A program made the position numbers and the translations under genes. A DNA stretch of 64,000 nt, from assembly GCA_944386055.1 (NCBI GenBank), contig CALWZP010000005.1, positions 1-64,000 of the forward strand, read 5' to 3'. The notes beneath the pieces were generated by a model. That model was given only the letters and a program-made list of their open reading frames with translations. It searched no databases and had not been told where the DNA came from. The DNA comes from an uncultured Oscillospiraceae bacterium (GTDB taxonomy: Bacteria > Bacillota > Clostridia > Oscillospirales > Oscillospiraceae). Positions 7,431 to 16,607 of the stretch are shown here, piece by piece. Position 1 is the first letter of the stretch, and every line of letters starts with the position of its first letter.

Positions 7431-7452
7431 ACAGTCAAAATTGAATCGCTTG

Positions 7453-7625
7453 AGAAGATAGAGGCGCGGTGTCCATCAGTACCGCTCCGGCAAGGCCAGG
7501 CAAGCCGCCGGAGGGAAAAGGGGCCACCGCCGAAGCGGGGGAAACGCTTGCCTGGCATCCCCCCGCTGGGCCGGCAGAGAACATCTGCCGGACTGTCACA
7601 AAATCCTTTGTGAAGCGCTATCAAT
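7453..7625 (+). ncRNA. lysine riboswitch (L-box)
   Basis: The leader carries the L-box signature in order: AGAAGATAGAGGCGC, AGTA, a purine-rich GGGAAAAGGGG segment, CACCGCCGAAGCG, CTGGGCCGGC, and a closing CTGTCACAAAATCCTTTGTG hairpin. GATAG at 7457-7461 can pair with CTATC at 7618-7622 to form P1. The order and loop sequences match the B. subtilis lysC leader that I know. A T-run terminator follows (7671-7703), so lysine binding is expected to end transcription before the transporter genes. Confidence 0.9.
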
Positions 7626-7670
7626 GGCCGCGGGCGGCCCCAAGAGGGGGCTCCGTTTCCGCCAGTTCCA

Positions 7671-10475: not shown

Positions 10476-11582
10476 CTATTCTCCCTGCAGAAGCTCCGTC
10501 AGGGCCTCGCTTCGTTGCAGCCAGTACCGCCCGTCGTCGCAGAGCAGCACCCACACAGGTCCCGCGATCTCCGTCTGGGCCGGGTCGTTGAGCTGCCCCC
10601 AGATGCGGAACGACCCCTTCAGGTCCAGAAAGCCTCTCCAGTCCACCCGCACCTCCGGGGTCAGGCACCACATGCCGTCGGGCAGCCAGGGGTACTCCTG
10701 CCGGGTCTCCCAAAGGGCAGAGGAGGTCCACCGCGTCGTATCCTCCAGCAGCACCGCCCGCTCCGTCCTGGCCCTCAGGGCGTCCCGGTCCATCAGCTCC
10801 TGCTCCGCCACGGCATAGGCGGTGATCCGGAAGGGGCAGCCCTCCTGCTCCTGGCTGTAATACGCCAGCAGCTCCTCCAGCAGCCGCTTGGCGGCCTCCT
10901 CCGGGGTCAGCCCCTCCCCGTCGGTGAGGACGAAGGCCCGCCGGGTGTACAGCGGGTTTTCACAGGCAGGGTCGGCCTCCACGGCCCGCTCCAGCAGTTC
11001 CCCGTCAAACAGCTCCGCCGGGTCCAGCGCCGCGTAGACGCCCCCGTCCGCCCAGCCCACCAGGTCGGCGAAGGCCTCCTCCACCTCCCCCGCCGGGTCA
11101 CGGGTGGGGGTGGGGGTGGGGACCGGCTCGGGCATTTCCGCCACATCGGCGGAGAGCGTCCTGCCCCCCGCCTGGGTCACGGTGACCATGCGGACCTGCC
11201 CGTCCACATAGAGGAGGGCCGCCTGGACGCAGTCCTCCGGCTCCGCGGGGGTATAGCGGATCTCAAACACCCCGCCCTTTACCACCTCCACCCTCCCCAT
11301 CTCGGCGCAGTTGGGGAGATAGGGGGCCAGCAGCGCCCCGTCGTACCAGACGGAGGCGGACGAGCTCTCCCCCTCCGGGGCCGGGACCTGGGGCGCCTCC
11401 GCCACCACCTGCGCCAGCAGGGCGGTCACGGGGGCGTCCTCCGCGAAGAGGAACTGGTCGTAATACCCGCTCTCCGCCGCGGGCTCCACATCCACCCCGA
11501 CGAGCCAGATCGTCCACCCGATGAACGCCGCCGCGATGATCACCGCGGTGACCCCGGCGATGCGCTTTTTTGTCCCCGTCAT
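10476..11582 (-). CDS. single-pass extracytoplasmic protein of unknown function
   Basis: A 368-residue protein with one N-terminal membrane anchor (about residues 8-28, after a short MTGTKKR), followed by a soluble, acidic domain presumed to be outside the cell. A PEPVPTPTPTRDP linker near residue 155 separates two parts. The second half (WADGGVYAALDPAELFDGELLERAVE to the end) is Trp/Glu-rich and could be a ligand-binding or enzyme-like fold. I do not recognise a family. The start has GAAGGAGGG upstream. It lies 34 bp behind the membrane protein at 11617-12261 and probably forms an operon with it. Confidence 0.7.
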   Translation of the reverse strand: MTGTKKRIAGVTAVIIAAAFIGWTIWLVGVDVEPAAESGYYDQFLFAEDAPVTALLAQVVAEAPQVPAPEGESSSASVWYDGALLAPYLPNCAEMGRVEVVKGGVFEIRYTPAEPEDCVQAALLYVDGQVRMVTVTQAGGRTLSADVAEMPEPVPTPTPTRDPAGEVEEAFADLVGWADGGVYAALDPAELFDGELLERAVEADPACENPLYTRRAFVLTDGEGLTPEEAAKRLLEELLAYYSQEQEGCPFRITAYAVAEQELMDRDALRARTERAVLLEDTTRWTSSALWETRQEYPWLPDGMWCLTPEVRVDWRGFLDLKGSFRIWGQLNDPAQTEIAGPVWVLLCDDGRYWLQRSEALTELLQGE

Positions 11583-12659: not shown

Positions 12660-12953
12660 TCACTTAACTTGCTTTTTGCCTCGATACCCAACCAAGAGAA
12701 GCAATAACTCACTGGCCACGCCTGAGACCAGAAGGCCCAGGAGAGAGACCGCACTTCCATGGACTGCCGCCAGAGTAAAAATGAACAGGACGATTTGCAA
12801 AAGGTAAAAAACCAGCATGGGACGCCATACCGTCTTGTCGTGCCGACAAGCCAGGAAGCACAGTACAGCATTGAGCACAAGGACAGCGGCAAATATGCTC
12901 ACCATGATTGGGAAATAATGGGTATCTGTGGCCAGTTGAAGACAATCAAACAT
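12660..12953 (-). CDS. small three-helix membrane protein, accessory cluster
   Basis: A 97-residue protein with three hydrophobic helices (roughly residues 15-35, 45-65, 70-90) and a basic end (GYRGKKQVK). Its codon use is visibly more AT-rich than that of flanking genes. It overlaps the preceding gene by 8 bases, so the two are probably translated together. No family is recognised. It is the last gene of the secreted/membrane cluster that follows the second ECF-type promoter element. Confidence 0.6.
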   Translation of the reverse strand: MFDCLQLATDTHYFPIMVSIFAAVLVLNAVLCFLACRHDKTVWRPMLVFYLLQIVLFIFTLAAVHGSAVSLLGLLVSGVASELLLLLVGYRGKKQVK

Positions 12954-13287
12954 GGGGTTCTTCTCCCTCCTCGGACTTATCTTTGCTCTTCTTCGTTAGG
13001 AGAGTATTTCGGAAAAGCAGTGGGATAAGGCTGAAAAGCCATAATATGCCGGCCACGAGGAACGCCTCCGCTTCGAGATCATACCTGTTCAAAATATGGG
13101 CGGAGGGAATGTTTATGCCCCAAAATACCTGGCGTGTGGCAAGCCATGCAAACACGATGTGAATTACGAGAAGGCCTCGTGCCTGAAGATGCAGCACTAT
13201 TTTCCCAAATATGGCAATTAAGATGCCATACAGTGCAAACAGGAAAAGAACGGCATCGCATACGATTCGGACCGATGTAGAATCCAT
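12946..13287 (-). CDS. small membrane protein, accessory cluster
   Basis: A 113-residue protein with three predicted helices (about 8-30, 38-58, 75-95) and a charged, Lys/Glu-rich tail (LLTKKSKDKSEEGEE). It shares the AT-richer composition of its neighbours and overlaps the downstream 97-residue gene by 8 bases. The two may form a membrane complex. The short upstream gap (13288-13316) contains 14 bases identical to the start-site region of the ECF-type element at 15029-15042. A GAGAGG ribosome site lies before the ATG. Function unknown. Confidence 0.6.
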   Translation of the reverse strand: MDSTSVRIVCDAVLFLFALYGILIAIFGKIVLHLQARGLLVIHIVFAWLATRQVFWGINIPSAHILNRYDLEAEAFLVAGILWLFSLIPLLFRNTLLTKKSKDKSEEGEEPHV

Positions 13288-13316
13288 TTGCAGCCTCTCT
13301 ATTCTAATTGCCCGAA

Positions 13317-14477
13317 TTACTCAACCACAAGGTTTGAATAGTTGGGAACGATGATATCGACATCGGTAGCTTCCGGATGATCAGCAAGCCAGAGTGCTTC
13401 GCTAATGTCTGCAATCAAAACCAGAGGATTTTGAGACAGGCTTTCATAAGTGTTGGTTGCACTGTTGATCATAACATTCATGGAAACAATGCCCTCATAG
13501 GAACACAGTTCTTTTCCAGCGTCATTTATGCACGATTCCACTCCATCAATAACTGATTCTTCTTCCAACATAGATGTTTGGGCGTACCACAGGTCCTCGC
13601 TGTTATCCCGGAATACGGCCTGGTAATTCAAAAGAGTTGCACCGCTGGTATCCAGCACGGCGTTCATCTGAGATAAAGTCATCGGCTGAGCAAATGTAAC
13701 GGTGCATTTAAAGTCTTCTGCTGTATCTTTCAATGTGCTGATATACTCGCTTTTTTGATTTGCTTCCTTTTCTGCAAGTGTATTTATTGTAGCCTCTTTT
13801 TCATAGAGGATCACCTGCTGTTCAGGAAGGCTGTCCATGCCTATATTCAAAGGCTCTGATGCGCTTTCAAGAGAGAAGACGCTTTGGCTCGAATTGGAAA
13901 ATCGGTTGTCATAGCAAATTGAAGTACCCATAGGGTTTGATGTACCAGGAATAGTGTTGTACCTATCCCCCACTGGAAATTCAAAAGATCTCGATCCCCA
14001 TAGATCTACATTGCTTTGGTACCACTCATTATTGTTGAAAAAGCGTGAATACATATTGTATTCTTTATTAGCAACTACCTGGCCTGTTACAGCAATTTCA
14101 AATTCATCATAGTAACCATCTTTTGGCTCACTGTCATCGTCAAAATCAAAATAGGGACCAGGTAAACTTGTAACTTGAAGTGTGGTATCGACATCATACC
14201 CATTAGAGGATGTTACTTCTCCGCCTTTTACAGTTCCACCAATTTTGTGATCAAATGTCAGAACCCCTCCAGATCCGTTGGTTGCAATGGCCTGGTTGGA
14301 ACTAAAGGTAAAGGTTGATCGTGTTGTTACACACGCTTGATTGTTTACGGTAGTTGCAGAAGCTGTATGATATGTCACCGTAGGCAGCCAAGGAGCTGAA
14401 TTAGAAGTGGCAAACGACTGTATCGCACACAATGCTGTGCATAAAACAACAGCGCCAATCAGCTTAATTCTTTTCAT
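13317..14477 (-). CDS. secreted protein of unknown function, accessory cluster
   Basis: A 386-residue protein with a clear signal peptide (MKRIKLIGAVVLCTALCAIQSFA, cleavage near residue 24). The mature part is Ser/Thr/Asn-rich with beta-like repeats and an acidic DFDDDSEPKDGYYDEFE segment that could bind calcium. A Glu/Lys-rich helical stretch lies around residues 230-255. Four Cys residues are present. Composition is clearly more AT-rich than the core genome, consistent with horizontal acquisition. It is preceded by TAGGAGG. It lies 45 bp behind the smaller secreted protein and has no promoter of its own that I can see. No family is recognised. Confidence 0.7.
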   Translation of the reverse strand: MKRIKLIGAVVLCTALCAIQSFATSNSAPWLPTVTYHTASATTVNNQACVTTRSTFTFSSNQAIATNGSGGVLTFDHKIGGTVKGGEVTSSNGYDVDTTLQVTSLPGPYFDFDDDSEPKDGYYDEFEIAVTGQVVANKEYNMYSRFFNNNEWYQSNVDLWGSRSFEFPVGDRYNTIPGTSNPMGTSICYDNRFSNSSQSVFSLESASEPLNIGMDSLPEQQVILYEKEATINTLAEKEANQKSEYISTLKDTAEDFKCTVTFAQPMTLSQMNAVLDTSGATLLNYQAVFRDNSEDLWYAQTSMLEEESVIDGVESCINDAGKELCSYEGIVSMNVMINSATNTYESLSQNPLVLIADISEALWLADHPEATDVDIIVPNYSNLVVE

Positions 14478-14522: not shown

Positions 14523-14936
14523 TCACGGGCACTCCACCGGGGTGGAGTACACGGTGACGGTCTCCTCCTGTCCGGAGGAGTTGGTGACGGTGGCGGTCAC
14601 TCCCAGGCGGTAGGTGACCCCGGGCTCCCGGCGGATGGCCTCGCCGTTCAGGGAGAGGGTGCTGCCGGTGGTGGTGCGGGAGGACCAGGTGACGATGGTC
14701 TCATACCGCCCGTTGTCCTTCAGCTCCTGGAGGAAGATCCGGCCGGTGATCTCGGTGGTGCCGGATTTTCCGATGATCGTGGCGTTCCCTACCGCCGTTG
14801 TTCCGGAAAAGGTCAGCGTCCTAAGAATGCTGCTGGTGTTGTCCCACAGGGGGACAATGCTCTGTGCCATGGCGGCGGTGGTCATGGCGCACATCATCAG
14901 CACCGCCATGGCCAGGGAAATTGCTTTGGTTCTCAT
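14523..14936 (-). CDS. small secreted protein, first gene behind the ECF-type element
   Basis: A 137-residue protein with a signal peptide (MRTKAISLAMAVLMMCAMTTAAMA, cleavage around residue 24-25). The mature domain of about 110 residues is Thr/Ser-rich with alternating beta-strand patterns (TEITGRIFLQELKDNGRYETIVTWSSRT, GVTYRLGVTATVTNSSGQEE), suggesting an Ig-like or jelly-roll fold. The ATG at 14934-14936 with GGAGGAAA upstream is preferred to an earlier in-frame ATG. It is downstream of two tight leader hairpins and the second copy of the ECF-type promoter element, so it is the likely direct target of the sigma factor at 15856. Confidence 0.75.
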   Translation of the reverse strand: MRTKAISLAMAVLMMCAMTTAAMAQSIVPLWDNTSSILRTLTFSGTTAVGNATIIGKSGTTEITGRIFLQELKDNGRYETIVTWSSRTTTGSTLSLNGEAIRREPGVTYRLGVTATVTNSSGQEETVTVYSTPVECP

Positions 14937-14977
14937 TGTTTTTTCCTCCTTATTTGTATTTGGCTCCACCCGGGCTC

Positions 14978-15018
14978 ATCCGGACCAACGGTCCGGATGG
15001 CGGCCCCATCGGGCCGCC
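14978..15018 (-). promoter_or_regulatory. tandem leader hairpins before the small secreted protein
   Basis: Two perfect stems lie back to back: 14978-14986 with 14990-14998 (9 bp, AAC loop) and 14999-15006 with 15011-15018 (8 bp). They lie between the putative ECF promoter and the coding start and have no T run. Confidence 0.5.
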
Positions 15019-15030
15019 CCCTTGAGAGCT

Positions 15031-15100
15031 CTCTATTCTAATAAACGCACGATGCCCCCCATTTCTCCGCAAAAATCGAAAAATTTTTTAAATTTTTTCG
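15031..15100 (-). promoter_or_regulatory. ECF-type promoter element, copy B
   Basis: Read on the minus strand: A-tracts (AAAAAATTT repeats), ATTTTTGCGGAGAAATGG, a short G-rich spacer, CGTGCGTTTAT, then AGAATAGAG. It matches the element upstream of the ECF sigma gene (16471-16540) almost base for base outside one short variable segment. It lies upstream of the secreted protein gene and directly after the anti-sigma gene. Confidence 0.65.
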
Positions 15101-15163
15101 GGTCCGGACGGCAAAAAACCCGCCAGCCCTTGGGGGCCAACGGGTCGACGCACTTAAAAATTT

Positions 15164-15859
15164 TTAATTTTTCTGGACGCTCTCCGCGATCCGGATCAAT
15201 TCCTCCGGTGAAAGCTCCGCCAGAAGAGAGAAGGCCGTGCCGGAAGCCTGATCGTACCAGGTCAGGCTGCTCTGGTATCCCGGCTCCACCGCCCGAAGCA
15301 GATATCCGGGACAATCGTTGATCCAGACATCCATCTCTTCATGATGCTCATTGTTGAAACTGGTGATTGTGGCAGATGATGTGCATTGAAAAAAGATGAC
15401 ATTGCCGTTATTGTTTGTGTAAATAGACAACGGTCCGACTCCTTCATTGTTGTACTCTGTCAACTCATACCCCCTTGGCAGCCAAGCGGGGACCCACTGT
15501 CCGGTCTGGCCGGCCTGTCCGCCGGTCTCGTCCACAAAGCGGATGGTGGTGTACTCCTCCAAAATCTCCACGATCAGGTTCCGCGCCCACGCCCGGGCCT
15601 CGGGGCTCACCGCCAGCACTGTCCCGGCGGTGAGGGCGGCGGCCAGGGCCACGGCGGCGGCGGACCGGCCCAGGGCGCGGCGACGGCGCCGCCGGTCCCC
15701 GAAGGGATCGGAGAGCAGGGGGCGCAGGCGCCGCAGAAGCTCAGGAGGCAGAGGCAGCTCCTCCGCCTCCCCGGGGCGGAGATGGAGGTACTCCGCCTCC
15801 TCCGCCTGCAGCAGGGCCAGGCGCAGCGCCTCATCCGTCAAAACGATGATCTCACTCAT
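15164..15859 (-). CDS. anti-sigma factor, DUF4367-type
   Basis: A 231-residue single-pass membrane protein. Residues 1-70 form a charged cytoplasmic part expected to hold the sigma factor. A basic RRRRRRALGR block precedes one membrane helix (about residues 80-100). The outer domain, from VDETGGQ to the end, contains VPAWLPRGYELTEYNNEG and WYDQASGTAFSLLAELSPEEL, which match the DUF4367 domain found on Clostridia anti-sigma factors. Its ATG overlaps the stop of the sigma gene by four bases. The outer domain probably senses an envelope signal. Confidence 0.8.
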   Translation of the reverse strand: MSEIIVLTDEALRLALLQAEEAEYLHLRPGEAEELPLPPELLRRLRPLLSDPFGDRRRRRRALGRSAAAVALAAALTAGTVLAVSPEARAWARNLIVEILEEYTTIRFVDETGGQAGQTGQWVPAWLPRGYELTEYNNEGVGPLSIYTNNNGNVIFFQCTSSATITSFNNEHHEEMDVWINDCPGYLLRAVEPGYQSSLTWYDQASGTAFSLLAELSPEELIRIAESVQKN

Positions 15860-16395
15860 GGGTGGATCCCCTCCTCCAAAAGTCTCTCCTGCAGCAGCTT
15901 CCGCCCCTGGGAGAAGCGGCGGTAAATCGTCTCCACCGGCAGCCCCATGGCCGCGGCCGTCTCCTCCGGGCTCTCCTCCAGCACCAGCCGCCGGCGCAGC
16001 ACCTCCCGATAGGTCTCGGGCATGGCCAGAATCAGCCCCACCAGCCGCTGGTACCCCTCCGCCGCCTCCGCGGCCTCGGTGGGGTCCGGCCCGCCGGGCA
16101 GGGCCTCCCCATCGTCCAGGCCGGTGTACCGCCCCTCCCGGCGCAGCAGGTCGATGGCGCTGGTGCGCACCGCCGCCAGCAGATAGGCCCGCTGGGCCCG
16201 GGGGGGCAGCGCCGCCACCCTGGAGAAGTTCCGGGCCACGGCGGTGAAGGCCTCCTGCACCGCGTCCTGGGACAGGTTCCCGTCCAGGTGCCGCCGGGCG
16301 GCCCGGAGGGCCAGGCCGGCGTGGGCCTGGAAGAAGGCCCGGAACTGCTCCCGCAGCTCCGGCCGGTCCAGCGCCGCCAGGCAGATGCTCAGCAT
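15856..16395 (-). CDS. ECF-family RNA polymerase sigma factor
   Basis: A 179-residue sigma-70-like factor with only regions 2 and 4. Region 2 is seen in LSQDAVQEAFTAVARNF and AYLLAAVRTSAIDLLRRE (the -10 recognition helix). Region 4 is seen in YREVLRRRLVLEESPEETAAAMGLPVETIYRRFSQGRKLLQERL, the -35 recognition helix-turn-helix. It overlaps the anti-sigma gene. The repeated A-tract/GCGGAGAAAT/CGTGCG element upstream (16471-16540) suggests autoregulation. Confidence 0.9.
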   Translation of the reverse strand: MLSICLAALDRPELREQFRAFFQAHAGLALRAARRHLDGNLSQDAVQEAFTAVARNFSRVAALPPRAQRAYLLAAVRTSAIDLLRREGRYTGLDDGEALPGGPDPTEAAEAAEGYQRLVGLILAMPETYREVLRRRLVLEESPEETAAAMGLPVETIYRRFSQGRKLLQERLLEEGIHP

Positions 16396-16470
16396 CCCAC
16401 CGCCCCCTTTCTCCTCCAGTGTAGCAGACTACACCGCCGCTGTCCAGTTTTTGGTTTTCTTGCCGTAGGT

Positions 16471-16540
16471 CTCTACTCTTATAAACGCACGACAACGCCA
16501 TTTCTCCGCAAAAATCCGAAAATTTTTTGAATTTTTTCAA
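16471..16540 (-). promoter_or_regulatory. ECF-type promoter element, copy A (sigma operon)
   Basis: On the minus strand: A-tracts, ATTTTTGCGGAGAAATGG, spacer, CGTGCGTTTAT, AGAGTAGAG, about 75 bp before the sigma gene. Nearly identical to copy B at 15031-15100; the spacer between the AAAT block and GTGCG is one base shorter here. Confidence 0.65.
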
Positions 16541-16570: not shown

Positions 16571-16607
16571 AAAAAGCCGGGCGCCGCCACCGCGGCGCCC
16601 GGCTTTT
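16571..16607 (-). terminator. intrinsic terminator of rny
   Basis: A 15-bp stem (about 16572-16586 with 16592-16606) flanked by A and T runs, ending in TTTTT on the minus strand directly after the rny stop. Confidence 0.8.

Follow-up and report, generated by a model that had tools for sequence, protein, structure and literature searches.

A predicted ECF sigma factor regulon with a duplicated self-promoter in an uncultured Oscillospiraceae bacterium

A near-identical 74-bp element occurs twice on the minus strand of the window (the whole stretch of 64,000 nucleotides analysed here), once before an ECF sigma factor gene (copy P1) and once before an operon of secreted and membrane proteins (copy P2). 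A predicted ECF sigma regulon with a duplicated self-promoter is well supported, and the original prediction, which had proposed such a regulon, was right in substance. We consider it highly probable that P1 and P2 are promoters of the adjacent sigma factor. P1 would drive the sigma/anti-sigma operon in positive autoregulation, with a sigma-A-like promoter possibly supplying basal sigma. On an outside signal, the predicted DUF4367 anti-sigma factor would let the sigma go, and the freed sigma would bind P1 and P2 and turn on the operon behind P2. A further site, P3, would be a target controlled in trans, and the role of the regulon may be envelope-related. The reading of a promoter shared by sigma and targets is supported by the co-occurrence of element and sigma within the genus, by P1/P2 pairs at two loci of other genera (L018 and L069) and by a swap of cassettes between species.

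Gene order and the duplicated element

The minus-strand order is rny (RNase Y), P1, the ECF sigma gene, the DUF4367 gene, P2, and a four-gene operon that encodes a secreted protein of 137 aa, a protein of 386 aa and two small membrane proteins. The sigma factor (15859-16395, minus strand, 179 aa), here called type A, scored above cut-off for Pfam Sigma70_r2 (30.1 bits) and Sigma70_r4_2 (40.6 bits) and for TIGR02937 (62 bits, cut-off 42.9). It has sigma-70 regions 2 and 4 only, as in ECF (group IV) factors, with no further domain above the Pfam cut-off. The gene of the DUF4367 protein (15164-15859, minus strand, 231 aa) overlaps the end of the sigma gene. Its product has one membrane-spanning segment (residues 66-86) and, from its position and topology, is the predicted anti-sigma factor. 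The two protein identities proposed from the letters alone were borne out by Pfam.

Ten of the 12 DUF4367 proteins examined had one membrane-spanning segment according to hydropathy. The two others accompany a paralogous sigma (type B) in the source genome of the window, G000 (L035:10132-10785, contig C14), and in a second genome of the genus, G150 (L047:1619-2245, contig C95); they had no such segment, and the sensor there may therefore be cytoplasmic. The G150 protein scored below the DUF4367 cut-off (18.6 vs 22.1). The terminator scan omits the T-run hairpins visible by eye downstream of rny and of the anti-sigma gene, and no weight is therefore placed on them.

In the 74-column alignment of P1 with P2, 63 columns are identical, 8 are mismatched and 3 contain gaps. 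The alignment scored 90, whereas 2000 pairs of dinucleotide shuffles averaged 19.7 (sd 2.8) and never exceeded 35; without the A-tracts the score was 57 and the shuffle maximum 28. Together with a check of positions, this confirmed the two near-identical minus-strand copies of the original prediction. In the 2.30 Mb draft of G000 (90.2% complete), the strict pattern GCGGAGAAATGG-N4-8-TCGTGCG occurred twice, as did the 22-mer TCGTGCGTTTATNAGANTAGAG with up to 3 mismatches, and the backward control of each gave no match. A generic repeat found at many unrelated loci, which would have spoken against the regulon, was rejected on these counts. Two looser patterns each added one site, P3 (G000:C14:12163-12221). 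A 12-mer alone, with up to 2 mismatches, was found at 15 places in the window against 8.0 expected; since this word is common, the special feature is the whole element and not the word.

Behind P2, the first gene (14523-14936, minus strand) has a ribosome-binding site and encodes a secreted beta-sandwich protein of 137 aa from a family without a name or a Pfam entry. Its structural model had a mean pLDDT of 83.5 and matched PDB structures weakly (best E-value 4.8e-4, TM-scores of at most 0.52 in the 50 matches listed), and no function is claimed from this likeness. The second gene (13317-14477, minus strand) lies in an AT-rich stretch and encodes a 386-aa protein with a signal-peptide-like start, for which a protein search gave two entries only (97% and 88% identical). 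Operon genes 3 (12946-13287) and 4 (12660-12953), also on the minus strand, encode membrane proteins of 113 and 97 aa. The stretch 12660-14477, which holds the 386-aa orphan and these two small membrane proteins, has a GC-content of 40-48% compared to 60-72% around it, and its genes were possibly acquired.

The P2 leader (14937-15036, minus strand) folds into two hairpins inside a closing stem, at -46.7 kcal/mol (z -4.2), with none of 200 shuffles as stable. Six leader stretches were folded and three of them beat all 200 shuffles: those of P2 in G000 and in G150 (z -5.0) and one in G334 (z -4.0). The P2 leaders of G000 and G150 (L046:3389-3500) are both strongly structured and differ in sequence. 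A known RNA family was rejected for the leader, with no Rfam match at the gathering score there or at the G150 or C14 sites. Elsewhere in the window, a lysine riboswitch (7451-7628, 105.5 bits) lies ahead of a set of genes that by eye resembles an amino-acid ABC transporter.

Predicted promoter anatomy

Boxes were assigned from an alignment of ten sites, comprising six of type A, three before the type-B sigma and one from another genus (G045). In P1 (16471-16552, minus strand), the A-tract (about 16552-16515) would be followed by the -35 region TTTTTGCGGAGAAA (16514-16501), the -10 box CGTTTAT (16487-16481) and the predicted start region AAGAGTAGAG (16480-16471). The corresponding parts of P2 (15031-15103, minus strand) are an A-tract (about 15103-15076), a putative -35 region (15075-15062), a -10 box CGTTTAT (15047-15041) and a predicted start region TAGAATAGAG (15040-15031). 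Transcription is predicted to start near AGANTAGAG, and the A-tract may act as an UP element.

The promoter reading of the original prediction gained support from this alignment, but its choice of CGTGCG as the -10 box was rejected. The CGT that aligns with the type-B and G045 sites is that of CGTTTAT, three bases downstream of the start of CGTGCG, so that CGTTTAT is most likely the -10 box; the -35 region was set to TTTTTGCGGAGAAA from the same alignment. CGT, canonical for ECF -10 boxes, and AGAG were invariant in 10/10 sites, and the A-tract core was nearly so. AAC, described as usual in ECF -35 boxes (PMC8103513), is absent from TTTTTGCGGAGAAA and its relatives among the aligned sites, a point against the reading as ECF promoters.

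The A-tract pattern AAAAATTTTTTGAAAAAWTTT (up to 3 mismatches) gave six hits genome-wide at four distinct places, with none in the control. Three of the places lie before ECF sigma genes (C14:9460, C5:16529 and C5:103474) and one elsewhere (C2:3476). The third ECF sigma gene (identified by Pfam; G000:C5:103474-103644) is preceded by a similar A-tract and CGTTTACAGAG. A scan for sigma-A-like promoters gave the candidate TGGACA-17-TACACT (16418-16446, minus strand; 9/12 consensus matches) in the interval from P1 to the sigma gene. The 13 bases TTAGAATAGAGAG at the predicted P2 start recur exactly at 13295-13307, before the gene of the 113-aa membrane protein; this copy has no -10 box and overlaps the likely ribosome-binding site.

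Co-occurrence and cassette exchange within the genus

Three genomes of the genus (G000, G150 and G087) were compared, all drafts, of 57 to 160 contigs, with one genome per species. The element and the type-A sigma co-occurred across them. Type-A sigmas, 77% identical to each other, were present in G000 and G150, each with three distinct type-A sites (P1, P2 and P3 at C14:12163 in G000; two on C20 and one on C10 in G150). G087 had no type-A site, and no type-A sigma was found in this 85%-complete genome, where the best match was of type B (60%). In the backward control, the loose pattern gave one hit each in G000 and G150.

The promoter region of the type-B sigma has the same kind of A-tract, a similar -10 and a different -35. 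Its form, ATCCTGTCA-N16-19-CGTYY, was found before the type-B sigma in 3/3 genomes (control 0) and at one additional place, in G087. Comparison of the two type-A with the three type-B sigmas gave 14 fixed differences, seven in region 4 but only one in the recognition helix; the differences thus do not cluster in the helix (1/14), which counts against the promoter reading.

The predicted third target site, P3, adjoins cassette B yet has the type-A form. A type-A -35 beside the paralogous sigma points to control in trans. P3 precedes the MSAWVKQHK gene, and the G150 partner of this gene lies downstream of P2 with one small membrane gene between. In its C-terminal half, a protein encoded in the window (10476-11582) shares 50% identity with the same half of the P3 target; this protein is found at the rny locus in both species.

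The cassettes themselves have changed places between species. At the rny locus, the window and contig C95 of G150 agree in both flanks (94% across the 975 columns that end at 16571 and 85% across 2305 columns from 11548 on), with cassette A in the window and cassette B in G150. At the pgi locus (Pfam PGI), the flanks of contigs C14 of G000 and C20 of G150 also agree (89% on the upstream side, 90% and 86% on the downstream side), with cassette B in G000 and cassette A in G150. G087 also has type B at rny. The cassette A match extends in the window from 16570 to 15043 (74% over 1551 columns), and the conserved block begins just ahead of the P1 A-tract and ends at the P2 -10. Judged by these alignments, the predicted promoter (-35) type follows the sigma and not the chromosomal address.

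In G150 (L046:3870-4400 and L047:3898-4140), the MSTWV gene on the pgi side is truncated, and the rny locus carries a fragment resembling the end that this gene lacks, which suggests a rearrangement at rny. No match to the MSTWV-type protein was obtained in G087.

The draft state of the genomes, with a single one per species, raises the question of whether the swap is an assembly error and so uninformative on promoter specificity. We regard this as unlikely, since both flanks and the cassette lie on a single contig at all four places in G000 and G150, and A and B sites share a tract of no more than about 20 bases. Neither the co-occurrence nor the P1/P2 evidence, moreover, relies on the swap.

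The swap also bears on whether the element is instead the site of another regulator, a repressor or activator over both operons, with the sigma gene merely one of its targets. Such a site would suit a conserved stretch that exceeds the -35 and -10, with TCGTG between them and AGAG after. However, no other regulator gene accompanies the conserved block, the sites, when aligned with those of the paralogue and of G045, are laid out as a promoter would be (an A-tract, then a variable -35 and a -10 with CGT), and the -35 type changes along with the sigma, which makes another regulator very unlikely. Recognition of P1 and P2 by the adjacent sigma is the reading that we retain.

Distribution beyond the genus and relation to known systems

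A profile search for the secreted protein in ~5.8 billion proteins listed 40 entries, counting that of the window itself. In 400 genomes of the bacterial family, the secreted family gave seven matches (again including the window's own) in six genomes of five genera. All seven genes directly follow a sigma-70 gene (regions 2 and 4) and a DUF4367 gene, the stretch fetched for G200 beginning inside its sigma gene. Within a set of loci retrieved on account of their sigma, the profile of the seven homologues picked up 12 more, one of them a weak match. CGTT was present before 7/7 of the secreted-family genes, a count reached by 3 of 1000 shuffle sets, and GTTTAT before 5/7, reached by 0 of 1000.

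Stretches before the sigma gene (P1-like) and behind the anti-sigma-like gene (P2-like) were compared over 51 sigma loci. The ORF rule gave no anti-sigma at six loci, of which G000 and G150 were restored by hand and L011, L015, L034 and L102 were excluded; L071 was left out because its upstream stretch was too short. The locus's own pair beat all cross-pairings at five of the 51 loci (G150, G000, L018, L069 and L093). L018 and L069 belong to other genera and have -35 letters unlike the window's, and the L093 match consists of 14 bases that are not promoter-like. Permuted partners reached the observed P1/P2 sum in 0/5000 cases, and in 23/20000 without G000 and G150 (49 loci). The remaining 46 loci had no P1-P2 match, several of those listed carrying a sigma-A-like sequence before the sigma gene, and the arrangement is thus not universal. 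The small share of loci with such a pair counts against the shared-promoter reading.

The A-tract and -10 pattern matched in 12 of the 400 genomes compared to 5 of 400 for the backward control, and these control hits weigh against the reading. Outside the genus, only the G045 match sits at a cassette of sigma, DUF4367 and secreted-protein genes; a match in G185 is followed by a sigma-like reading frame, and chance may account for the others. Among the best 80 matches of a sigma-alignment scan of named genomes, there was one close relative (60%), none of the others exceeding 39% identity across the part that matched.

It is highly improbable that P2 is a remnant of an old sigma-promoter duplication that drives nothing useful: P1/P2 scores within genomes (126 in G150, with 68/70 columns identical, and 90 in G000) do exceed those between genomes (62 for P1 vs P1, 55 for P2 vs P2), as expected after recent copying, but the gene behind P2 has its ribosome-binding site, the CGTT/GTTTAT box recurs before homologous secreted genes in other genera where the flanks have diverged, and P3 keeps the motif with a different spacer and start letters.

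Within the reading of P1 and P2 as promoters of the sigma, it is possible, and we propose it tentatively, that the element marks the edge of a relocatable unit of promoter, sigma, anti-sigma and promoter. The right-hand copy would be an output port for whichever genes lie beyond it. These are the secreted operon with its AT-rich orphan genes in one species and a small membrane gene with the MSTWV gene in another. The promoters may provide homology for moving the unit or exchanging it with its paralogue, and P3-like promoters left behind would keep former neighbours in the regulon.

The SigW-type envelope stress sigma of Bacillus subtilis is an ECF sigma with a membrane-bound regulator. The window's sigma resembles it in its predicted regulator of this kind and a predicted action on envelope genes and differs from it in the -35. 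It did not qualify as a member of the SigW family, scoring 20.5 bits for SigW_bacill (TIGR02948, cut-off 243.1), and reached 28.4 bits for PRK09641 (cut-off 209).

Autoregulated ECF sigma/anti-sigma systems (PMC8103513) share with this locus a two-domain sigma, an adjacent membrane anti-sigma (predicted here), a predicted promoter before the sigma's own operon and its targets, and CGT in the -10. Compared with that account, the locus has no AAC in the -35 and a long A-tract, the block ends in a second copy of the predicted promoter immediately after the anti-sigma gene, and the predicted anti-sigma carries DUF4367. In the literature searched, DUF4367 was not found, either alone or with a sigma factor. 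For orthogonal ECF sigma/promoter pairs, specificity is attributed to the combination of -35 and -10, which keeps related sigmas apart (PMC3817407). Here, by comparison, the separation appears to be between two paralogues within one genus and to reside in the -35, the A-tract and -10 having changed little.

The regulatory logic is ordinary for ECF factors, and it is the cassette exchange that merits further attention. This exchange offers an unusually clear natural experiment in the insulation of a duplicated sigma from its sister, as the cassettes were swapped and the predicted promoter type was kept with the sigma, with a clear change at the -35. A secreted protein family that has no name is linked with the DUF4367 domain in one recurring module, which makes the two testable together. 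Should the promoters themselves be the ends at which recombination takes place, a regulatory site would at the same time form the border of a moving unit.
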